The notes below the pieces were generated by a model. The model did no database searches, was not told the origin of the DNA, and saw nothing but the letters and a program-made list of their open reading frames with translations. DNA of 64,000 nt from Nakamurella alba (lineage in GTDB: Bacteria > Actinomycetota > Actinomycetes > Mycobacteriales > Nakamurellaceae): positions 1,798,001 to 1,862,000 of the forward strand of contig NZ_WLYK01000001.1 of assembly GCF_009707545.1 (NCBI RefSeq). The letters run 5' to 3'. Made by a program: the position numbers and the translations under genes. Positions 21,773-56,997 of the stretch are shown piece by piece (positions within the stretch are counted from its first letter, which is position 1; every line of letters begins with the position of its first letter).

Positions 21773-23958
21773 TCGCCGGTGCCGGCCGAAGTCGGCCGGT
21801 CCTCAGTCGGCCGGTCAGTGGTGGTCCGGTCCGTGGTCGATCGGTCGGTGGTGGCCCGGTCGGTGGTCGACCGGTCGGTGGCCGACCGGGCCACTGATCC
21901 GACTGCCGGCATCCGCACCTCGAAAGTGGTGCCGACGGACCCGGGAACCCGGCGCAGCCGGCCGCCCATCGCCCGGGTGAGCCGCTCGGACAGCGCGAGG
22001 CCGAGCCCGGTTCCCTCACCTTTGCGGGTGCCGGACCGGTGGAAAGGTGTGAACAGCAGCGGGATCTCGGCGTCAGGGATGCCCGGCCCGTCATCGCTGA
22101 CCCGGAGCGCCGCACCGTCCCAGGAGACCACCACCGACCCGCCCTCCTGGGTGAACTTCACCGCGTTGCCGACCAGGTTGATCAACACCTGACGCAGCCG
22201 TCGCGGGTCGCCACTGACCCGGACCGGGCGCGCGGGCAGTTCCGCCGTCAGGCTGATACCGCCCTGGACGGCCAGCTCGGCCATCAGATCCACTGTCTCC
22301 CTGATGGTGTCGGCGGGATCGAACGGCCGGCGGTCCGGGAGCAGTCGACCGGTCTCCGCCCCGGTGAGGTCGGACAGGTCGTTGATCACCTGCAGCAGGT
22401 GCCGCCCGGCGGTGAGGATGCGCTCGATTGCGCCCTCCCGGCGTTCCGGGTCCAGTTGCACCATCTGCATGGCCTGGGCGAAACCGATCACCGCGGTCAA
22501 CGGGGTGCGGAGCTCGTGGCTGACCAGCGCCAGCTGCTCGGTCTTCGCCTGGTTCGCCGCCTCGGCCACCGCCTGCTCACGACGGGCCTGGGCGACACGG
22601 CGGCGTTCGGTGAGGTCGAACAGCTCCACCACCAGGTATCTGGCGTCGCCGTCCGGTCCGGTGACCAGGGAGACGCCGAGGGTGGTCCAGAGCGGCTGCG
22701 CCCAGCTGTCGCCGACCCACCGCACCTCCGGGAGCCGGACCGGCGTGCCGTCCGCGGCGCACCTGCGCAGGGCGCTCGTGAAGTCGTCGAGATCGTCCGG
22801 GTGCACATTGTCAGGCAACCTGTCACCGGTTGCCGCGCCGCCGAGCATCCGGCTCAGCGCCGGATTCGCCTGGAGCAGGTCACCCTCCGGGGAGACCAGG
22901 GCCATCCCGACCTCCGCACCCTCGAAGGCACTGCGGAACCGTGACTCGCTCTCCGCCAGCCGGGAGAACAGGGCATGGGTGCCGATCGCGATCGCGGCGG
23001 TGTGGGTGAACCGGCCGACCAGTTCGACGTCGGAGGCATCCGGCTCCCAGGGACGGTCGTGGTAGACGGCGAAGGTGCCCAGCACCTCGTGCCGGTCGGC
23101 GTCCAGGATCGGCGTGGACCAGCAGGACCTGAGCCCGTGCTGCATCGCCATGTCCCGGAAGGCGGTCCAGCGCGGGTCGGTGGCGATGTCGGCGGCGACG
23201 ATCGGGATCTTCAGGTACGCCGCCGAGCCGCACGAACCGACCGCAGGACCGATCTGCACGCCGTCGATGTACCGGCGGAACGGCTCCGGCAGGTGCGGTC
23301 CGGCGCCATGCACCAGAGTGGTGGGGTCGGGTCCGCTGAGCAGGATCGAGCAGATCGATCCGGGCAGCTGTGCCTCCATCGCCGCGACCACGCCCTGCAG
23401 GCTCTGGCTCAGCGGGACACGGCGCGCGATGCCCTCCAGGATCTCCGCCTGGGCGAGAGCCGGGAACTCCGGTCCCTCTTCGGCGACCTCGGCGATCACC
23501 GGACCCCCTGCGGCGACCAGGGTCTCGGACCGTGCGAGGTCGGCGATCGAGTCGGCATTGCGATCCGCCAGCGCGCGGAGCAGCCGGACCGCGCGGTCGG
23601 TGGCGCCCGGCTCGTTCTGGATCAGGTCGGCCAGCATGACCGTGGACTGCACCCCGGTGCGCAGATCGTGCAGCGCGAACTCCCGGCTGCGCCGGGCCTC
23701 GACCTCGTGGTGGCGGAGGGTGCGGGCGGCCCGGCGGGCCGTGCGCAGAGTGACCTCCGACGGCTGCTCGTCATACGGCAGCACCACATCGGCCCCGGCC
23801 AGCCGCGCGCGAACGGCTGCATCCGGATCGATCGACCGGACCAGCGCCACGATGGCAGTATCGGGATCGGTGGCACGGAGCTGTGCGACCTGGTCGGCGG
23901 GCACCACCCGGCAGGGGTGATCGGCGGCCACGTCCTCGTCGAGAGGGAGCTGCTGCAT
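21658..23958 (-). CDS. Soluble hybrid-like sensor histidine kinase (GAF-PAS-HisKA-HATPase)
   Basis: 766 residues, no membrane segment. The N-terminus (about 1-75) looks like a receiver remnant without a clear phospho-Asp (AIVALVRSIDPDAAVRARLAGADVVLPYDEQ). A GAF domain spans about 180-320, a PAS domain about 345-460, the phospho-acceptor His is in VSHELRTPL near 481, the N-box LINLVGNAVKF near 596 and the G-box GTGLGLALS near 649. The last 75 residues are low-complexity Thr/Asp/Arg repeats (TTDRSTTDR) and are encoded antisense to the receiver gene. The ATG at 23958 has GGAG six bases upstream and shares two bases with the start codon of the divergent NarL-type regulator. Confidence 0.9.
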   Translation of the reverse strand: MQQLPLDEDVAADHPCRVVPADQVAQLRATDPDTAIVALVRSIDPDAAVRARLAGADVVLPYDEQPSEVTLRTARRAARTLRHHEVEARRSREFALHDLRTGVQSTVMLADLIQNEPGATDRAVRLLRALADRNADSIADLARSETLVAAGGPVIAEVAEEGPEFPALAQAEILEGIARRVPLSQSLQGVVAAMEAQLPGSICSILLSGPDPTTLVHGAGPHLPEPFRRYIDGVQIGPAVGSCGSAAYLKIPIVAADIATDPRWTAFRDMAMQHGLRSCWSTPILDADRHEVLGTFAVYHDRPWEPDASDVELVGRFTHTAAIAIGTHALFSRLAESESRFRSAFEGAEVGMALVSPEGDLLQANPALSRMLGGAATGDRLPDNVHPDDLDDFTSALRRCAADGTPVRLPEVRWVGDSWAQPLWTTLGVSLVTGPDGDARYLVVELFDLTERRRVAQARREQAVAEAANQAKTEQLALVSHELRTPLTAVIGFAQAMQMVQLDPERREGAIERILTAGRHLLQVINDLSDLTGAETGRLLPDRRPFDPADTIRETVDLMAELAVQGGISLTAELPARPVRVSGDPRRLRQVLINLVGNAVKFTQEGGSVVVSWDGAALRVSDDGPGIPDAEIPLLFTPFHRSGTRKGEGTGLGLALSERLTRAMGGRLRRVPGSVGTTFEVRMPAVGSVARSATDRSTTDRATTDRSTTDRTTTDRPTEDRPTSAGTGDHPRAPRRSTTSTSSGMSNGLASATSAPVTATTPAAST

Positions 23959-48610: not shown

Positions 48611-48755
48611 GACCATCTGCGACCGCCTGCGTTCTCTGCTTCGGCGGGTTTCTGATCGCCGGAGTCCGGTGGAGGTCGGAGCACTTGGTGTGGGCGGGGT
48701 CCGGTCCTGCTCTTGCGACGCCGTTTCGGTCCGACGACCGGGTCCCTGCTGATCG

Positions 48756-49041
48756 GGGGCCGTTTCCGTCGGTGGGCGACGGAAACGGTCCCGGCCTCGT
48801 TGATGGGTTCGGGTCTGGTCCTGCGGGTGCCGGGACGGCGCTGGTCCGAGAACCCGGGGTGATGTGGGCGGCCGATCGGGGACCGTTTTCATCGGTGGGC
48901 AACGGAAACGGTCCCGGCCTCGTTGATGCGTCCGGGGTCTGGCTCCTGCTGGTGCGCCGGGGTGGCGCAGTCTGCGAACCCGGGGCGGTGTGGCCGGCCG
49001 ATCGGGGACCGTTTCCGTCGGCACGCGACGGAAACGGTCCC
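48756..49041. repeat. Three tandem palindromic repeat units between the HAD gene and the export operon
   Basis: Hairpins at 48756-48792, 48879-48915 and 49005-49041 share 16-base arms of the form GGGACCGTTTCCGTCG and CGACGGAAACGGTCCC with a 5-base loop; the third is perfect, the first has one and the second three changed positions. They recur every 123-126 bases because the intervening sequence (starting CGGCCTCGTTGATG) is also repeated. A more diverged trace precedes the first unit near 48715. The region 48611-49121 holds no convincing gene. Both flanking genes end here, so the hairpins could act as terminators. Confidence 0.85.
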
Positions 49042-49121
49042 GGATTCCGGGGAGGCGCGAGGATTTCCGCGTCGGCCCTCGGAGATCAGGCGATCGGCGG
49101 ACCGGTCGAACGCCGGCCCGG

Positions 49122-52100
49122 TCAACGGCCGGGCATCTGTCCCATCTGCGGGCCGCCGCCATTGAATCCCGCCCCGCCGGCGCCGCCACCGGTGTTGGAA
49201 CCACCCAGCAGCCCGTTCGCGGCCGACGTCGTGGACGAGGTCGGCAGCGCCTCGGACAGGTCGGCCAGCACCACCTGGTCACCCACGTCCAGCCCGCTGG
49301 TGATCTCGGTGAGAGCACCTCCCACGGCGCCGATCTCGACCGCAGTACTGGTCGACACGCCGTTGACCAGCACGTCGACCGTGTGCGCGGACCCGACGGT
49401 GTGTACTGCCGAGGTCGGCACGGTCAGCACGCCCGAGACATCGGCCACCACCACGCCGACGGAGGCGCCGGACCCGTCGTACAGCGTGGTGTCGCCGGCG
49501 TCGACGAGCACCGTCACCGGGTAGGTCGGATCGTCACCGGTGCTGTCGGCGAGGTTGCCGATCAGCGACACGGTGCCGGTCAGCGACTGGTCCACGCCGT
49601 TGACGGTGACCGTGGCCTCGTCGCCCACGCCGATCTTCTCCACAGTCGACAACGGGACCGTCGCGGAGACCGTGTACTGCCCGCTGCCGATGACCGTGAC
49701 CGTGGCGCTGGTCGAGTTCGCCGAGACGTCGTCACCGACCGCCAGGTCCAGTGACGCGACTGTGCCGGAGATCGGACTGGTCAGCACCGACGCCGCCAGC
49801 TCCTGCTTCGCGACCGCGACAGCTGCTGTCCTGGCGTCGATCTCCGCCTGGTCGGCGGCGATGTCGGCAGCGGTCGGGACGGTGTCCTTGGCCGCACCGG
49901 TTCCGCCGGACGCTGCTCCGGTCCCGCCCGACACTGCGCCGGTGCCACTCGAGGTGTCGCCGGTCGCTCCCGACTCCGCACCGGTACCGCCGGACACCGA
50001 GCCGGTACCTCCGGCCGCCGCGCCCGTGCCGTCCGACGTGGAGCCCGATGAGGCATCGCCGCCGCCGGCGATGGTTCCGGAACTGCCGGCGTCCGCGCTG
50101 CCGCCCTGGGTACCGCTGTCGCCTTGTGCGCCGGTGCCCGCTGCGGCGTCGGTTCCCGAGGTTCCGCTGCGGCCCTGGGCGGCGTCCGACTGGCCGCCAC
50201 CCGAGCCCGCGGTGCCACCGCCGATCACGCTCGCACCGCCGGTGCCGGACTGACCGGAAGTCTGTCCACTCTGACCGCCGGTGCCGGACTGGCCGGACTG
50301 CGAAGCCCCCGGCGAGCTACCGGTTCCCGAGCCGCCGGTCCCGTCGGCCGTCGGCAGGAGGGCGGCCAGCGCGTTCACGGCCGTCGTGAGGGAGTTCTGG
50401 TTCTCGCCCAGCCCGGACTGGGCATCCTGGACGTCGGTGATCGCTGCCTGACAATCAGCGAGCTGGGTGGACAGGACGGAATCTCCACTGCCCGCTGTGC
50501 CGTCACCGGTGGTCGTGGTGGGTGCCGTGCTGTCGGTGGTGCTCGTCGACGAGGTTCCCGACGAGCCCGATTCCGAGGCCGTCGACTCCGGAGATGTCGA
50601 CGTGCGCGACGACGAGGAGGTCCCGGTCGATGTCGGTTCTGTGGTGGTGGCGTCGTTGAAAGTGGATCCGGTAGAAGTGGATCCGGTAGGAGTGGATCCG
50701 GTAGAGGTCGATCCGGTCGACGTGGTGTCGGTCGCCGCCGCCAGCTGGCGGTAGGCGGCCTGCACGGCGACGACGGAGGAGTCCCCGCCGACGACCCGGT
50801 CGACGGCGTCCTGCATCTCCCCGGTGACCTGCACCCGGTAGGCCGCGGCTGCGGTCCCCGTCGTTGCGGTCGTGTCGGCGGTGTCGGTCGTCCCGGTGGT
50901 GGTCGGGGTGACCGTCACGGTGACCGGATCCTGGGCCACGGTGGTCTGCTCGGTGACCGTTGTCTGCTCGGTGACCGTGGTCTGCTCGGTCACGGTGCTC
51001 TGCTCGGTGACGGTGGAGCCTTCGGTCACGGTGACCGGGTCAGGGGTCTCGGTGACGGTGACCGTGCTGCCGGAGCTGTCCGTCGACGAGGCCGTGCCGG
51101 AGTCGGACGACGAACCCGAGCTGCTCGGGTCGGTGCTCGTCGGGTCGGTACTGGACGGGTCGGTGCTGGTCGATGTGGAGGGGGTCGTGCCCGGCACCGT
51201 GGCGGTGGTGATCGGCAGGCAGGCGGCCTGCTGGGCGCTGATGGCCTGCTGGACCGCGGTCGTCTGCTCGGTGACGACCTTCTGCGCAGCGATCACCGCC
51301 TTCTGCGCAGCGGTCAGCGCGGCCGTCCCGCCACTCCCGGTCCCGGGTCCCGTCCCGCTGGAGGTCGGCGCGCCGGAGGATGCCGAAGCGGAGGTCGGCC
51401 CATCCGACGAGGACGACCCCGACGGGGCTCCCGAGGGTGCGGCGGGGGCCGAGGTCGTGGCAGATCCCGTCCCCGAACCCGTGGCGGTCTCCTGCCCGGT
51501 CGCGCCTGAGCCGCCGGACGAAGCACCGCCGGTACCGGCCACCGAGCCGGTCCCGGATCCGCCGGCTCCAGCACCCGCTCCGGATCCGCCGGCCGTCCCG
51601 ACGCCCGCCGTGCCGGAGTCACTCGCAGCCCCGGAGGCCGCGTCCGCGGCGGCGTCGGAACCCGTGGAGTCGTCGGTGCTGTCATCGGCGTCGTCGCTCT
51701 CGGCCTCGGCCTCATCGACCTGGGCCTGCAGATCATCGGCCAGTGCCTGTTGGGCGTCGGTCAGGTCGGACTCCGCGGAGGTAACCGCGTCCTCGAGATC
51801 GCCGGTGTCGAGGGTTGCCACGGTCTGGCCGGCGGTGACGGTGTCGCCGACCTCGACGGCGACGTCCGCCACGGTGCCGGCGACGGCGAAGGCCGCGGAG
51901 GCCTGGTCCTTGTTCGCGACGGTGCCGGAGGCGGCGAAGGTCTGGGTCACCGCTCCATCGGCCACCATGGCGACCCGGTAGGCCGCGCCCTCGTCACGCG
52001 TGGTCGCGTAGGCCCAGCCGCCGCCGGCGATCAGCGCGACGGTCAGCACACCGCAGGCCGCGGTCACCCGGCGCTTGCGGCGTCGGCGCAACCGGGCCTG

Positions 52101-52160
52101 CGCGGCGGCGGTCCGGGCCGGTGCCGGCGCGGACACGGTGTCAGGAGTCGGGTCAGCCAT
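49122..52160 (-). CDS. Giant membrane-fusion (HlyD/MacA-type) adaptor with very large low-complexity insertions
   Basis: 1012 residues from the ATG at 52160, overlapping the upstream lipoprotein gene by 8 bases; a GTG 12 bases earlier is possible. One membrane anchor (about 31-48) is followed by a biotinyl-lipoyl-like half (AVAGTVADVAVEVGDTVTAGQTVATLDTGDLEDAV, about 90-125) and, far away, its second half (LTSPISGTVASLDLAVGDDV near 790) plus beta-barrel and membrane-proximal domains (about 815-975) and a Gly-rich tail. Between them, where a simple coiled-coil hairpin is expected, four helical segments alternate with about 600 residues of Ser/Thr/Gly-rich sequence, including four tandem TVTEQT units. 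It is the last gene of the MacB-type export operon. Confidence 0.85.
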   Translation of the reverse strand: MADPTPDTVSAPAPARTAAAQARLRRRRKRRVTAACGVLTVALIAGGGWAYATTRDEGAAYRVAMVADGAVTQTFAASGTVANKDQASAAFAVAGTVADVAVEVGDTVTAGQTVATLDTGDLEDAVTSAESDLTDAQQALADDLQAQVDEAEAESDDADDSTDDSTGSDAAADAASGAASDSGTAGVGTAGGSGAGAGAGGSGTGSVAGTGGASSGGSGATGQETATGSGTGSATTSAPAAPSGAPSGSSSSDGPTSASASSGAPTSSGTGPGTGSGGTAALTAAQKAVIAAQKVVTEQTTAVQQAISAQQAACLPITTATVPGTTPSTSTSTDPSSTDPTSTDPSSSGSSSDSGTASSTDSSGSTVTVTETPDPVTVTEGSTVTEQSTVTEQTTVTEQTTVTEQTTVAQDPVTVTVTPTTTGTTDTADTTATTGTAAAAYRVQVTGEMQDAVDRVVGGDSSVVAVQAAYRQLAAATDTTSTGSTSTGSTPTGSTSTGSTFNDATTTEPTSTGTSSSSRTSTSPESTASESGSSGTSSTSTTDSTAPTTTTGDGTAGSGDSVLSTQLADCQAAITDVQDAQSGLGENQNSLTTAVNALAALLPTADGTGGSGTGSSPGASQSGQSGTGGQSGQTSGQSGTGGASVIGGGTAGSGGGQSDAAQGRSGTSGTDAAAGTGAQGDSGTQGGSADAGSSGTIAGGGDASSGSTSDGTGAAAGGTGSVSGGTGAESGATGDTSSGTGAVSGGTGAASGGTGAAKDTVPTAADIAADQAEIDARTAAVAVAKQELAASVLTSPISGTVASLDLAVGDDVSANSTSATVTVIGSGQYTVSATVPLSTVEKIGVGDEATVTVNGVDQSLTGTVSLIGNLADSTGDDPTYPVTVLVDAGDTTLYDGSGASVGVVVADVSGVLTVPTSAVHTVGSAHTVDVLVNGVSTSTAVEIGAVGGALTEITSGLDVGDQVVLADLSEALPTSSTTSAANGLLGGSNTGGGAGGAGFNGGGPQMGQMPGR

Positions 52161-53241
52161 TGCTGCGTCCACCCGGGAACCCGCTCGTGCAGCTGCCGTC
52201 GACGGCGTCGGACAGCGCGATGCTGGTCGCGGTCACCGCGCCGGTGTCGTCCGCCTCGCCCATGGCGGTGGCGCACAGTCCCTCGGACACGGCCTTCGAC
52301 GTCGCGTCGACGGTCCGGGTGTAGGTGGTGTCCGCGGAGACGGTGATGGTGCCGGGGGTGGCGGCAGCCGTGGTCGCAGCGCTCGCCGACGCGTCAGCCG
52401 CGGCACCGGGGAAGGGGGTGGCGGACACGGTGATCGTGATGGTGGAGCCGTCGACCGCGGTCACCTCTCCGGAGAGCCGCTGACCGCCGCCGAAGCCGCC
52501 CGCACCCATCGCGCCCGAGGGCATGGCCCCGGACGGCATCGCACCGGTTGGCGCTGCCATCCCGCTCGGCATCTCACCGGTGGGCATCTCACCGGTGGGC
52601 ATCTGACCGGTGGGCATGGCCATACCGCTGGGCGGGGTGCCCCCGTTCCCGCCGCCGAAGCCACCGGCGCCCCCACCGAAGCCACCGGCCTGGGTGCAGG
52701 CACCGTCCACCGGCTCGGTGATCCGCACCGTGGTCGCGGTGATCGCATCAGTGGCATCGGCCGCGTCGGTCCCGGATGCGCTGTCGGTGGACTCGGCGGA
52801 CGCGACCACGCACGATCCGACCGTCACGTCCGTCAGTGCCGCGTCCTGCTGCTGGGTGAAGGTGGTGTCTGCGGTCCACGAGACGGTTGTCTGACTGTCC
52901 GACGACTGCACCTCCATGCTGTCGGTGTCGACCTCGGCGATGAGACCCGAGGTACCGGGCCGGATCTGACCGGAGGCACCGCCGCCCGGGCCACCCGCCC
53001 CGCCGGCACCGGCACCACCACCGGCGGACGGTGCCGCGGACGCCGCGGCGCCGGTGGTCGACACCGCACCGGTAGTGGCGGCAGCTCCGGTGGTCGCGGC
53101 CTCACCGGACGACGCGGTCCCTCCGCAGGCCACCAGCAGACCGCCGAGGACAACCGCGGCGCCGATCGCGGCGGCCGGTCGCACCCAGCGGCGGGCGACT
53201 GGGGTGGCGGATGCCGGGTCGGGGGAGAAGGTGGTGCGCAT
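52153..53241 (-). CDS. Met-rich lipoprotein with two DUF5666-like domains
   Basis: 362 residues from the ATG at 53241, with GGAGG seven bases upstream. A signal peptide ends in the lipobox LLVACG (Cys39), followed by an Ala/Thr/Gly linker. Two copies of a small beta domain (about 95-195 and 255-355) have the DUF5666 look: SGLIAEVDTDSMEV ... VSWTADTTF and SGEVTAVDGSTITI ... ITVSADTTY. Between them is a Gly/Pro/Met-rich segment with nine Met, built partly from a 15-base DNA repeat at 52570-52614 (units encoding MPTGE). It is exported and membrane-anchored. Placement between the permease and second adaptor genes suggests it is an accessory of the exporter. Confidence 0.8.
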   Translation of the reverse strand: MRTTFSPDPASATPVARRWVRPAAAIGAAVVLGGLLVACGGTASSGEAATTGAAATTGAVSTTGAAASAAPSAGGGAGAGGAGGPGGGASGQIRPGTSGLIAEVDTDSMEVQSSDSQTTVSWTADTTFTQQQDAALTDVTVGSCVVASAESTDSASGTDAADATDAITATTVRITEPVDGACTQAGGFGGGAGGFGGGNGGTPPSGMAMPTGQMPTGEMPTGEMPSGMAAPTGAMPSGAMPSGAMGAGGFGGGQRLSGEVTAVDGSTITITVSATPFPGAAADASASAATTAAATPGTITVSADTTYTRTVDATSKAVSEGLCATAMGEADDTGAVTATSIALSDAVDGSCTSGFPGGRSNG

Positions 53242-53324: not shown

Positions 53325-54554
53325 TCATTCGCTGCGCAGCGCGTCGATGGGGGCGAGCTTCGCGGCGCGGGTCGCCGGATAGACCCCGAACACCACGCCG
53401 ATGAGCACGGCGATGGCGATGGACCCGCCGACAGCAAGAGGGGACACGACGATCTCGGTGGAGAGCAGGTCGGGCAGCCAACGGGCGGCCAGAATGCCGA
53501 GAACCGCGCCGAGCAGTCCGCCGGCCAGGCCGAGAATCGTGGCCTCCACCAGGAACTGGCGGCGGATGGCACCCGGCGGTGCGCCGAGCGCCTTGCGCAG
53601 CCCGATCTCCCGGGTCCGTTCGGACACCGACACCAACATGATGTTCATGACCCCGATCCCGCCCACCAGCAGCGACAGCCCGGCGATGCCGGTGAGCAGC
53701 ACCGTCAGGGTCCGGGAGACCGCGGTCGCGGTGGAGAGCAGGGACTGCTGGCTGGAGATGGAGAAGTCGGCGGAGTCGCTGTCGGTGATCCCGTGCAGCG
53801 TCAGCAGCAGTGCCTGCGCCTCCTGGTACGCGGCGGACAGCTGGTCCTCCGAGGCGGCCTGGATGTAGATCGTCGACACCGAGTCCTTGTTGGTGCCGCC
53901 GATCACCCGGTTCGCGACGGTGGAGAGCGGGGCCACCACCTGGTCGTCGAGGTTGGTCGAGGAGTCGGTGCCGGCCGAGGCGAGCACGCCGACGACCTCG
54001 AAGTCGATCGAGTTGATGGTCACGGTGCGGCCGACGACCGACGTGGTGCCGAACAGCTCGGTCGCCGTCTCCGAGCCCAGCACGGCCACCGCCGCCTGGT
54101 CGGTGACGTCCTGTTCGGTGAAGAAGCTGCCGGCCGACAGCGTCCGTGAGCGGACCTGCGCCCACTCCTCGCTGGTCCCGACGACCGAGGTGGTCCAGTT
54201 GGTGTCGTCCGCGGTGACCGACAGCGAGGTGGACTTCACCGGCGCGACCGCGCCGATGTCCGGTGCCGCCACCTCGGAGGCGAGCGCGGTGGCGTCATCG
54301 ACGGTCAGCGTGGTGGAGCTGCCGAAGCCGCCGCGCACCCCTTCGCTGGTGCTGCTGCCTGGCGAGACGATCAGCAGGTTGGAGCCGAGACTGCTGATGG
54401 AGGCGCCGACCTGGCGCTGGGAGCCGAGGCCCAGGCCGACGGTGAGGATCACCGCGGCGATGCCGATGAGGATGCCGAGCGTGGTCAGCCCGGACCGCAG
54501 GCGGTGCGAGCGGATGGCGTCGAGACCGGTGCGGAGGGTTTCCGTCCACCTCAT
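53325..54554 (-). CDS. MacB-type ABC transporter permease
   Basis: 409 residues from the ATG at 54554, overlapping the ATPase stop as ATGA. One N-terminal membrane helix (SGLTTLGILIGIAAVILTVGLGLG) is followed by a MacB periplasmic core-type domain (about 45-275) and three C-terminal helices in the FtsX-like region (LLTGIAGLSLLVGGIGVMNIMLVSVSERTREIGLRKALGA, a diagnostic stretch, then two more). Such permeases act as mechanotransducers rather than classical channels. The C-terminus VYPATRAAKLAPIDALRSE is typical. It pairs with the ATPase and an adaptor encoded directly upstream. Confidence 0.93.
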   Translation of the reverse strand: MRWTETLRTGLDAIRSHRLRSGLTTLGILIGIAAVILTVGLGLGSQRQVGASISSLGSNLLIVSPGSSTSEGVRGGFGSSTTLTVDDATALASEVAAPDIGAVAPVKSTSLSVTADDTNWTTSVVGTSEEWAQVRSRTLSAGSFFTEQDVTDQAAVAVLGSETATELFGTTSVVGRTVTINSIDFEVVGVLASAGTDSSTNLDDQVVAPLSTVANRVIGGTNKDSVSTIYIQAASEDQLSAAYQEAQALLLTLHGITDSDSADFSISSQQSLLSTATAVSRTLTVLLTGIAGLSLLVGGIGVMNIMLVSVSERTREIGLRKALGAPPGAIRRQFLVEATILGLAGGLLGAVLGILAARWLPDLLSTEIVVSPLAVGGSIAIAVLIGVVFGVYPATRAAKLAPIDALRSE

Positions 54555-55606
54555 GCGGCCGGTCCCCGCTTCCGGCGCGCGTCGCGTGCACTGTTGCCGG
54601 TTGCACCGACGTTCCCGGACCCACCGACATTCCCGGCGGTGTCGAACATCCCGGCCGCACCGACGTCTCCGGTGATGAACCCGTTCCCGGACCTGCCGAC
54701 CGTCCCGGCGGCGCCGAGGTCCGGTGTCGAGCCGACGGCCGCCATGGTGCCCGTCCGTGCGAGAGAAATTGCCGCGCCGACGTTCCCGTCGGCGCTGTCG
54801 GTGCTGACGCAGCCGTCCTTCACCCGGATGACGCGGCGGGCGCGGTCGGCGACCTCGGTCTCGTGGGTGATGAGCACGATCGTCCGGCCCTGCGCGTGCA
54901 ACTCGTCGAACAGCCGCAGCGCGTCCTCGGTGGCGGTGGAATCCAGGTTGCCGGTGGGCTCGTCGGCCAGTACCAGCGCCGGATCGCCCACCAGGGCGCG
55001 GGCGACGGCGACGCGCTGCTGCTGCCCGCCGGACAACTCGCCCGGCTTGTGGTCGACGCGCTCGCCGAGACCGACCCGTTCCAGCGCCTCGATCGCACGG
55101 CGGCGTCGGGCCTCCCGGCCGACACCCGCGTAGATCAGCGGCAGCTCGACATTGCGCCAGGCGGTGAGCGAGGGCAGTAGGTGGAACTGCTGGAACACGA
55201 AACCGATCCGACGGTTGCGCACCTCTGCGAGTTCGATCTCGTCCATCACCCCGACGTCCTCGCCGGCCAGCCGGTACGACCCGGCGCTCGAGACGTCGAG
55301 GCACCCGATGATGTTCATCAGCGTCGACTTGCCGGAGCCGGACGGCCCGATGATCGCGACGTACTCGCCCTCGTCGATGCGCAGCGACACGTCGCGGACG
55401 GCGTGCACCTCCTGGGTGCCCATCCGGTAGGTCTTCGCGACCTCGGTGAGTTCGATGACCGGCACCGGCCGGCCCGGCTCGTCCCGGCCGACCGCGGGGA
55501 TCACCGTGGTCTCCCACTGGGACCGCAGGTCGTCGACGAGCGCGGCGTCTGCAGTGACAGTGGTGTCCGTGATGCCAGTGGTGTCAGTGGTGCCGGTGGC
55601 CGCCAT
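54551..55606 (-). CDS. MacB/LolD-type ABC transporter ATPase with low-complexity tails
   Basis: 351 residues; the ATPase core is about residues 48-275 and is intact: Walker A GPSGSGKST near 88, Q-loop FVFQQFHLLP near 137, signature LSGGQQQR near 190, Walker B LVLADEPT near 209 and switch His in LITHETE near 245. It carries an unusual Thr-rich N-terminal extension of about 45 residues and an 80-residue Gly/Asn/Val-rich C-terminal tail (GNVGGSGNVGATGN). The start overlaps the adaptor stop by one base and the permease start overlaps its stop. It would power the permease. Confidence 0.93.
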   Translation of the reverse strand: MAATGTTDTTGITDTTVTADAALVDDLRSQWETTVIPAVGRDEPGRPVPVIELTEVAKTYRMGTQEVHAVRDVSLRIDEGEYVAIIGPSGSGKSTLMNIIGCLDVSSAGSYRLAGEDVGVMDEIELAEVRNRRIGFVFQQFHLLPSLTAWRNVELPLIYAGVGREARRRRAIEALERVGLGERVDHKPGELSGGQQQRVAVARALVGDPALVLADEPTGNLDSTATEDALRLFDELHAQGRTIVLITHETEVADRARRVIRVKDGCVSTDSADGNVGAAISLARTGTMAAVGSTPDLGAAGTVGRSGNGFITGDVGAAGMFDTAGNVGGSGNVGATGNSARDARRKRGPAA

Positions 55607-56997
55607 CAGCTGCCACCGCCCGGTGCGAACCCGCCCTGACCACCGGTGAATCCGCCCTGGCCGCCGGTCCCGCCGCCGGGGAAGCCACCGGTGCCACCGC
55701 CCGGCAGGGTCGCGCCGTCGGGCAGTGTGACGCCGTCCGGCAGCGTGCCGCCACCGGGGAAGCCACCCGTGCCGCCGGTGCCGCCCTGCCCGGTGCCGCC
55801 CTGCCCGGCGCCACGGGCCACCGTGGTGACCTGGACCTGGTCACCCTCGGCCAGCCCGGAGACGATCTGCGTGCTGGTGCCGGAACTCTCGCCGATCTCG
55901 ACGGTGGTCGCGACGGCCTGCCCGTCGACGACCTTCTGGACCGTGCTGGTGCCGCCGGAGGTGGTGATCGCCGCCGACGGCACCACCAGGACGTCGGTCA
56001 GCTGCTGGTAGATCAGGGTGACGGTGGCCGCGGAGCCGTCGTGCAGGCCCTCGGGGGAGCCGGTGACCGCCACGGTGACGGGGTAGGACGCGGTGTCGGA
56101 CGTGCTGGTGGAGATGAGGCCGACCGAGGTGACCTTGCCGAAGAGCGTGCTCTCCTGGCCGTCCACGGTCAGCTGCGCCTGGATGCCCTTCTTGATCAGG
56201 TTGATCTGGCTGTCGTCGACGGTCACCGAGGTCGTCCACTTGTCGGTGCCGACGATCAGGAACGACGAACTGCTGCTGGTCGAGGTGGTGCTCTCTGTCG
56301 CGCCGCCGCCGGTCGCGCCGGAACCGGCAGATCCTGCAGACCCGGATCCCGATGAACTGCTCGAACCCGAACTGCCGGAGGAGGTGTCGCCGACGGCGAC
56401 ATTCACCTCGGCCACCACGCCGGCGACGGGGGAGGTCAATGTCGCGCCGTCCAGCGACTCCTGCGCGCTGTCGACCTGCTGCTTCGCGGAGGTGACCTGC
56501 GCCTGCGCGGCGGCCAACTGGGCGGCGGCGGTCTCGTCGTCCGTCGTGCCCTCGGTGTCCGAATCGTCGGTGTCAGCAGCGTCCTCGACCGCGGTCTGTG
56601 CACTGTCTGCCTGCGCCTGCGCCTGCGCGAGGGTGGCCTTCGCCGAGGCGAGATCGGCCTTCAGGGCGACGGTGTCGATGGTGCCCAGGGTCTGACCCGC
56701 CGTCACCGTGTCGCCGACGGCGACGTCGACCGCGGTGATCTCGGCGGAGGAGGACCAGCCGACGGACTCCTGCACGGCCGGGGCCAGCGTGCCGGACGCC
56801 TCCACGGACTTGGTGATGGTGCCGGTGGTGACGTCCACGTCGGTGGTGGTGATCGTCGGGGTGGCCGCGGTGTCCGCGGCACTGCTGTCGGCCCGCAACC
56901 AGAACCACCAGGCCCCGGTGCCGGCCACCGCCAGCACCACCACCAGGACCACCACGGTCAGCAGCGGCCTCGCCCTGACCTTGCCTCGCACACCCAT
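55606..56997 (-). CDS. Membrane-fusion adaptor (HlyD/MacA-type), first gene of export operon
   Basis: 463 residues. An N-terminal anchor (residues 12-33, LLTVVVLVVVLAVAGTGAWWFWL) is followed by the split lipoyl-like domain (AEITAVDVAVGDTVTAGQTLGTID and LTSPVAGVVAEVNVAVGD), a short helical hairpin (ADLASAKATLAQAQAQADSAQTAVED ... LAAAQAQVTSAKQQVDSAQESL), a Ser/Gly linker, beta-barrel domains and a Gly/Pro-rich C-terminus. It links a MacB-type permease to the cell surface. Gram-positives lack a TolC partner, so the tip may contact cell-wall or secreted proteins. The promoter should lie in 56998-57121. Confidence 0.92.
   Translation of the reverse strand: MGVRGKVRARPLLTVVVLVVVLAVAGTGAWWFWLRADSSAADTAATPTITTTDVDVTTGTITKSVEASGTLAPAVQESVGWSSSAEITAVDVAVGDTVTAGQTLGTIDTVALKADLASAKATLAQAQAQADSAQTAVEDAADTDDSDTEGTTDDETAAAQLAAAQAQVTSAKQQVDSAQESLDGATLTSPVAGVVAEVNVAVGDTSSGSSGSSSSSGSGSAGSAGSGATGGGATESTTSTSSSSSFLIVGTDKWTTSVTVDDSQINLIKKGIQAQLTVDGQESTLFGKVTSVGLISTSTSDTASYPVTVAVTGSPEGLHDGSAATVTLIYQQLTDVLVVPSAAITTSGGTSTVQKVVDGQAVATTVEIGESSGTSTQIVSGLAEGDQVQVTTVARGAGQGGTGQGGTGGTGGFPGGGTLPDGVTLPDGATLPGGGTGGFPGGGTGGQGGFTGGQGGFAPGGGS

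Follow-up and report, generated by a model that had tools for sequence, protein, structure and literature searches.

Five genes on the minus strand of a 64,000-nucleotide stretch of the Nakamurella alba genome (contig NZ_WLYK01000001.1, positions 1,798,001 to 1,862,000; hereafter the window) form an operon in the order MFP1, ATP-binding cassette (ABC) ATPase, permease, lipoprotein and MFP2. MFP1 and MFP2 encode adaptors, or membrane fusion proteins, and MFP2 (49122..52160), the last gene of the operon, is the subject of this study. A preliminary description of this DNA had singled it out as an oversized adaptor of 1012 residues, and our analysis confirms this; adaptors are commonly only a third to a half as long.

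The first adaptor, MFP1 (55606..56997), has 463 residues and no cysteine. It is followed by an ATPase of the MacB/LolD type (54551..55606; 351 residues, assigned by family matches), a MacB-type permease (53325..54554; 409 residues) and a small lipoprotein with an LVAC lipobox (52153..53241; 362 residues), in which weak DUF5666- and CusF-like stretches fall below the cut-offs (E = 0.075 and 0.055, the latter for CusF_Ec). Three of the four junctions are overlaps, and 83 nucleotides separate the permease from the lipoprotein gene. With a permease matching both MacB_PCD and FtsX and an ATPase of the LolD/MacB type, the operon has the composition of a MacAB-like (type VII ABC) exporter. In a family search of the 6.05-Mb genome, adaptor matches were limited to MFP1 and MFP2.

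The long adaptor and its segmented hairpin

The MFP2 open reading frame extends from 49122 to 52172 on the minus strand and would encode 1016 residues if counted from the first GTG. However, an ATG at 52160 shares bases with the stop codon of the preceding gene (ATGGCTGA), and MAD or MAE occurs at about this position in several homologues, so we consider the 1012-residue form to have the better start and number residues from it. The whole protein scores 103.6 bits against TIGR01730, the RND_mfp adaptor subfamily, above the cut-off of 94.9, whereas its best single stretch reaches only 84 bits, below it. HlyD_3 also matches above its cut-off, while lipoyl matches stay below theirs. Profiles, predicted structure and fold search agree on two lipoyl halves split by a hairpin and followed by a beta-barrel and a membrane-proximal domain, and by sequence and predicted fold MFP2 is thus an adaptor. 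The predicted hairpin is not continuous, as four disordered tracts break its helices. Adaptors without any hairpin exist, such as BesA (PMC3807786), and a broken hairpin therefore does not exclude MFP2 from the family; in the model, it is this interruption in which MFP2 departs from the usual adaptor form.

Read from the N-terminus, MFP2 begins with a predicted helix and hydrophobic stretch that we read as a membrane anchor (residues 18-53; 52002..52109), followed by an N-side core with the first lipoyl half, supported by homologues (residues 61-119; 51804..51980; block predicted local distance difference test score (pLDDT) 96-97). The predicted and conserved helix A (residues 120-160; 51681..51803) leads into tract 1, which is rich in Gly, Ser and Ala (residues 161-276; 51333..51680), and then into predicted helix B (residues 277-319; 51204..51332). 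The tip region consists of Thr-rich tract 2 (residues 320-446; 50823..51203), a helical tip segment (residues 447-478, with helices at 447-457 and 463-478; 50727..50822; pLDDT about 62-76) and Thr/Ser-rich tract 3 (residues 479-558; 50487..50726). On the return arm, predicted helix C (residues 559-601; 50358..50486) is followed by Gly/Ser-rich tract 4 (residues 602-763; 49872..50357) and by helix D (residues 764-791, predicted as helix from 764 to 789; 49788..49871). Residues 792-967 (49260..49787) contain the second lipoyl half, beta-barrel and membrane-proximal core, as judged from profiles, prediction and fold search. The lipoyl halves are 675 residues apart by landmarks and 681 by a profile measure, close to the 670 first estimated. 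The multi-part helical hairpin that had been suggested is what the prediction returns, with helices A to D and two tip helices between tracts. Long low-complexity tracts were likewise found in the hairpin as described, but their extent had been put at about 600 residues, and in the predicted structure the four mostly low-confidence tracts measure 116, 127, 80 and 162 residues, 485 in all.

The full-length prediction, made from 46 aligned sequences, has a mean pLDDT of 62.2 and a predicted template modelling score (pTM) of 0.49. Confidence is unevenly distributed: the cores have block pLDDT values of 87-98 and helices B and C of 86-94, and the tracts are mostly below 50. A fold search with this model ranked MacA first, with template modelling (TM) scores of 0.13/0.35; we attribute the low values to the disordered half of the chain. 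A match of the hairpin to the RipA coiled coil (E = 3e-4) was set aside as generic coiled-coil similarity. When segments were aligned with those of four congeners (G001, G008, G015 and G016), the tracts gave z scores from -0.8 to 5.6, with 13 of 16 below 3 (0.2-2.4 for tract 1), compared with 2.2-17.3 for helix B, 2.7-22.5 for helix C and about 50 for the C-terminal core. The helical tip segment can be aligned in G008 and G001 (z = 6.4 and 5.9), but not in G016 or G015. By these alignments, tract sequence is hardly conserved between congeners.

In Nakamurella, composition distinguishes the tip from the spacers, that is, from the tracts on the two arms. In all eight Nakamurella proteins the tip tract has less Gly and more Thr/Pro/Val than both spacers. 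Across 59 proteins, tip Gly is below that of the C-side spacer in 46 and of the N-side spacer in 37, and tip Thr/Pro/Val is above that of the C-side spacer in 35 and of the N-side spacer in 37; a Thr-rich tip was therefore rejected as a general feature of the family. GC content at the third codon position of MFP2 is 0.75-0.94 across the tract and tip segments. Second-position GC exceeds it in the first spacer, the second part of the tip and the last spacer, as expected from Gly, Ser, Ala and Thr codons.

The tandem repeats lie where they had been reported, an 18-bp repeat encoding TVTEQT in tract 2 (50941..51016; 4.2 copies, 87% matches) and a 15-bp repeat in tract 3 (50660..50725; 4.4 copies, 86% matches). 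The proposal that slippage in these repeats drives size change finds little support, since the repeats are imperfect (86-87%), the four tandem arrays inside the tracts cover only about 320 of 1455 tract bases, and one genome per species was compared. To judge from its sequence, a 15-bp repeat in the lipoprotein gene (52568-52617; 3.3 copies, 97% matches, coding for Met-Pro-Thr-Gly-Glu units) is a better slippage candidate. The idea of a length-variable surface filament also has little in its favor, as no evidence for one was found.

A conserved cysteine pair and covarying arms

Relatives were collected by scanning genome contigs with a C-terminal profile, A1, which gave 98 relatives, and the best 80 loci were kept. 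A contig scan with the single MFP2 protein as query returned no relative where the alignment query did, probably because its patterns lie partly in variable stretches. The comparison began from 92 proteins, 12 from the G-numbered genomes and 80 from the loci. Five duplicates equal to G genomes (L050, L051, L052, L078 and L080) and four proteins without a usable N-terminal half (L085, L094, L103 and L126) were removed, leaving 83 homologues. Three of these (L084, L086 and L102) run off the 5' end of the contig, and G009 stands outside the 92.

Comparison with these homologues identified a pair of cysteines flanking the hairpin tip, Cys314 (51219..51221) towards the end of helix B and Cys570 (50451..50453) close to the start of helix C. 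The pair is present at the hairpin in 80 of the 83 proteins: 76 have exactly two cysteines between the lipoyl halves and four have four, while one has three and two have none. The distance between the cysteines ranges from 6 to 256 residues across the 76 two-cysteine homologues, with MFP2 of the window at the upper end (256). Over the 80 proteins, the residue directly after the second cysteine is Gln in 64%, and the residue at +3 from this cysteine is Ala in 80%. The pair was overlooked in the preliminary description, as were the second adaptor gene of the operon and the compact homologues described below.

The sister adaptor MFP1 served as a control. It was found in 56 of the 80 loci and could be measured by profile in 55 (all but L093); 54 of these have no cysteine between the first lipoyl half and the end of the C-terminal domain. 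The sole exception, L116, has its genes in a different order: in this Actinomycetes metagenome-assembled genome (MAG; L116:4975-12600), a rearranged operon encodes a cysteine-free adaptor, ATPase, permease and then a cysteine-bearing adaptor. A tree was built from the C-terminal domains, with 137 rows. Here the L116 adaptor with cysteines groups within the MFP2 branch (support 98/86), where L104 is its neighbor (100/99), and the L116 adaptor without cysteines lies outside that branch, adjoining MFP1 at a fork of weak support. L116 thus follows the cysteine rule by phylogeny.

The genome also has two VKOR matches above cut-off. According to the part of the literature available to us, VKOR belongs to the actinobacterial disulfide pathway (PMC12421883), and the two matches would fit the making of disulfides on the outer side of the membrane that is described for actinobacteria. 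The two arms of MFP2 are probably pinned at their far end by the conserved cysteine pair.

If two strands are pinned at both ends, their lengths should covary. We measured the left arm from the lipoyl half to the first cysteine, the right arm from the second cysteine to the lipoyl half, and the tip between the cysteines, and compared log lengths by phylogenetically independent contrasts. The test used 74 of the 92 rows, after removal of duplicates, proteins with cysteine counts other than two or four, partial C-domain hits and arms shorter than 20 residues. Left and right arms covary (r = 0.50; permutation p = 0.0002, the smallest value attainable with 5000 permutations), and the median left/right ratio is 0.98. 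A variant of the test that omits three ratio outliers favors this outcome by its construction and does not count as evidence here. Correlations with the tip are 0.22 for the left arm and 0.28 for the right, and the partial left-right correlation given the tip is 0.47. Without Nakamurella (n = 66, two-cysteine proteins) the left-right correlation is 0.46; in two-adaptor operons only (n = 64) it is 0.55, with left-tip and right-tip values of 0.34 and 0.29. The covariation is as predicted for two strands pinned at both ends, and it lends support to the earlier suggestion that the tracts act as spacers.

Relatives, compact homologues and surroundings

At 1e-12, profile A1 matches nine of 17 Nakamurella genomes, the window's included. 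The complete long MFP2 gene is present in eight of the nine, and all eight have low-complexity tracts. As had been anticipated, tract length varies, here between species: 429-781 residues lie between the lipoyl halves of these eight genes by profile, and 423-775 in seven of them by simpler landmarks, one of which was missed in G016. In the ninth genome (G009, locus L038), the adaptor gene is spread over two reading frames of a 6.5-kb contig, with a similar cysteine pair in the first piece, and could be a pseudogene or a sequencing error.

Among the best 80 of the 98 relatives are loci from Nakamurella, Cellulomonas, Herbiconiux, Cryobacterium, Leucobacter, Pseudonocardia, Parafrankia and Actinophytocola, among others, as well as from Acidimicrobiia, Dormibacterota and one Chloroflexi MAG. 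The order MFP1-ATPase-permease-MFP2 on one strand is found in 54 loci. In another 14, from Dormibacterota, the Chloroflexi MAG and Actinomycetota MAGs, a single adaptor precedes the ATPase and permease, and the available DNA, which is short for some, shows no second one; the remaining 12 are cut off or different. Thirteen of the 14 single adaptors have the cysteine pair, and in 11 of those the last two cysteines lie within 12 residues of each other. The single adaptors also fall within the MFP2 branch of the tree; the second adaptor of L127 lies outside it.

One compact homologue, L118 (534 residues), was modelled from 27 sequences (mean pLDDT 82.7, pTM 0.42). Its predicted hairpin is near-continuous, with about 110 residues per arm and helices at 104-129, 133-213, 218-292 and 297-322, and Cys211 and Cys220 lie at the turn. 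MacA was again the first fold match (TM 0.44/0.65). Helix D has 26 residues in both the L118 and MFP2 models, which places the end of tract 4 at the L118 helix break; on the other arm, tract 1 starts about 15 residues beyond the matching break, as we read the two models. Based upon this match, the long MFP2 looks like a long clasped hairpin that has been interrupted, with its mid-arms replaced by spacer and its tip loop enlarged. In the midpoint-rooted tree the single adaptors take an outer place on the MFP2 side, which suggests that the compact form came first.

Several other features of the operon and its surroundings were recorded. Beyond its lipobox cysteine, the lipoprotein (52153-53241) has four cysteines, at 144, 182, 323 and 351, and as their number is even it may carry disulfides too. 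In MFP1 (55606-56997), an insert rich in Ser and Gly lies in the second lipoyl half, and the C-terminus carries long repeats rich in Gly. Downstream of MFP2, at 48751-49043, a 126-bp unit is present in 2.4 tandem copies, each starting with an imperfect palindrome of about 44 bp. When this unit was compared with its own genome (40 of 110 candidates scored), 11 of the 15 matches listed lay elsewhere, and as nearly all of these were confined to the palindrome, the unit looks like a dispersed element resembling repetitive extragenic palindromes. Elsewhere in the window, a 15-bp tandem repeat occupies 21796-21889 (5.6 copies, 81%). Neighboring genes were considered as a clue to the substrate and rejected as such: by crude gene-call clustering across the loci, and by Pfam for five picks, they are ordinary chromosomal neighbors with nothing indicating a substrate. 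They include pyrroline-5-carboxylate reductase, a methyltransferase, a sugar kinase and a LacI regulator, and a response regulator adjoins L105.

A proposed clasped hairpin, its rivals and known systems

We interpret MFP2 as a disulfide-clasped, segmented hairpin with spacers that serves as the second of two adaptors in a MacAB-like (type VII ABC) exporter, and estimate the probability of this reading at roughly 0.6. MFP2 probably descends from an ordinary adaptor whose helical hairpin was very long and had a disulfide at the turn; an arm of the L118 type, about 110 residues, would measure about 16 nm as a helix (at 0.15 nm per residue). In the two-adaptor actinomycetes, the middle of each arm would then have been replaced by a flexible spacer and the loop between the cysteines enlarged, most of all in Nakamurella. 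The resulting stalk would have rigid ends, with helices A and D at the lipoyl domain and B and C at the tip, with two flexible strands of much the same length between them. Helices B and C would be kept paired by the disulfide, so that the knob at the far end behaves as a single body with its large loop, away from the membrane, and the spacers may let the locked knob reach further into the wall. The knob probably sits in or near peptidoglycan. MFP2 may belong to an assembly resembling a hexameric tube, perhaps together with MFP1, to which permease movements would be passed on as a substrate is exported. MacB-type transporters are described as working outside the membrane by mechanotransmission (PMC5985334), and the adaptor of Streptococcus pneumoniae was modelled as a hexameric tube on its permease with its apex about 154 Å above the membrane, a height that its authors likened to the space beneath peptidoglycan (PMC5768738; both sources available to us in part). 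A bolder version is more doubtful: a "flail" adaptor, in which the disulfide-locked knob with its large Thr-rich loop hangs on two length-matched flexible strands. The type VII ABC pump would then combine short MFP1 and long MFP2 in one ring and extend through the peptidoglycan, each species having its strand length adjusted to the thickness of its wall. We regard this as a speculative and rather unlikely extension.

Several observations weigh against the clasped-hairpin interpretation. Eight of the 17 Nakamurella genomes have no A1 match at 1e-12, and the two-adaptor system is therefore not universal in the genus. L125 and the first adaptor of L116 (an MFP1 by the tree) have no hairpin cysteine, L127 has three, and in the four homologues with four cysteines the last two were taken as the pair; the disulfide between Cys314 and Cys570 is itself a proposal from sequence. 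Both models have a low pTM (0.42 for L118 and 0.49 for MFP2), and the MacA match falls from TM 0.44/0.65 for L118 to only 0.13/0.35 for MFP2. Helices B and C align weakly with G001 and G015 (z = 2.2-3.9), within the range of the tract scores. Arm-arm covariation is not significantly above arm-tip covariation (bootstrap interval of the difference -0.06 to 0.47), raw lengths give 0.42 for arm-arm and 0.33 and 0.36 for arm-tip, and arms in Nakamurella are only roughly matched (for example 313/234 and 232/164). In compact homologues a coiled coil would by itself make the arms match, and an overall growth of low-complexity sequence would push left, right and tip lengths together.

This last point leads to the strongest rival, that the tracts arose by neutral growth of low-complexity sequence in a part of a high-GC gene under loose constraint, their length without function and only the helices and cysteines of consequence. 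The poor conservation of tract sequence beyond composition (13 of 16 z scores below 3, the highest 5.6) would fit it, as would the absence of A1 matches in eight congeners, an arm-tip covariation not significantly below that of the two arms, and the Gly/Ser- or Met/Pro-rich stretches and tandem repeats of the lipoprotein and MFP1 genes. However, independent drift predicts no covariation of the arms, and theirs survives phylogenetic correction, also at constant tip (partial r = 0.47). The difference in composition between tip and spacers likewise argues against it, consistently in Nakamurella (8/8) and weakly elsewhere (tip Gly below the C-side spacer in 46/59). We consider neutral growth a substantial alternative, though well short of an even chance.

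Alternatively, the Thr/Ser-rich tip could be an O-mannosylated, surface-exposed region and MFP2 could act mainly at the surface. The Thr/Pro/Val-rich tip tracts of all eight Nakamurella proteins and two PMT-family matches above cut-off in the genome point in this direction. Yet such matches also occur in eight of 14 control genomes and nothing ties these two to MFP2, Thr/Pro/Val exceeds that of the C-side spacer in only 35 of the 59 proteins, and the tips of a number of Cellulomonas and Herbiconiux proteins consist of 20-40% Asp/Glu, so that we think this explanation improbable.

Instead of clasping the structure, the conserved cysteines could serve as a switch that responds to redox state or metal, as the sub-threshold CusF_Ec match (E = 0.055) and the Met-rich repeats of the lipoprotein might hint. 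Around the pair in the 80 proteins, however, the three commonest residues of a column never include His and include Met only once (18% at +22). The cysteines are 6-256 residues apart, and metal-binding motifs are not known to vary so in cysteine spacing. The oxidation of many exported mycobacterial cysteine pairs (PMC12421883, in the part available) also speaks against a switch, to which we give slightly less credence than to the mannosylated tip. Finally, a frameshift or misassembly as the source of the length, once named as what would overturn the description, is rejected as very unlikely on open frames and tracts in all eight complete Nakamurella genes, from separate genomes, and on high third-position GC throughout, the two-frame gene of G009 being the only hint of such an artefact and the window giving none.

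If the clasped hairpin is correct, the MFP2 family may show how export-pump adaptors work in bacteria without an outer membrane. The conserved tip cysteines and covarying arms offer a handle, as clasp and arm lengths could be altered singly and the pump then assayed, and the spacing of 6 to 256 residues is a natural series along which adaptor reach could be set against the cell wall.

Neither an adaptor whose hairpin is clasped or segmented nor the present operon with its two adaptors was found described in the literature searched on adaptors, MacB and ABC nanomachines (including the available parts of PMC5768738, PMC10094684, PMC4446572 and PMC5985334), which is not proof of absence. A very long helical coiled coil, of 127 Å, is known from EmrA of Aquifex aeolicus; it differs in serving a major facilitator superfamily pump and in having no membrane-proximal domain, and the accessible text mentions neither tracts nor a cysteine pair (PMC4158417). 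Spr0693-0694-0695 of S. pneumoniae and YknWXYZ of Bacillus are, as here, Gram-positive MacAB-like pumps with an adaptor. Spr0693 forms a hexameric tube with a 56 Å helical barrel, in which the hairpin turn Pro142-Gly163 could not be traced (PMC5768738); the portions of the sources at hand describe one adaptor for each system and make no mention of a clasp or segmented hairpin. MacA of Escherichia coli, the first fold match of both models, resembles MFP2 in its lipoyl, beta-barrel and membrane-proximal core and in its MacB-type permease partner. Its hairpin is plain, with a 70 Å stem (PMC5985334, in part), and reaches TolC, whereas that of MFP2 is broken by four tracts. Compared with E. coli MacAB, the Nakamurella operon has separate permease and ATPase genes and two adaptors. 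To our knowledge, Nakamurella has no outer membrane of the TolC-bearing type. TriABC-OpmH of Pseudomonas aeruginosa is a resistance-nodulation-division pump with an outer-membrane channel, unlike the Nakamurella system. It is nonetheless one pump that needs two different adaptors (PMC4446572, from the part available), and we propose that MFP1 and MFP2 likewise serve one pump.

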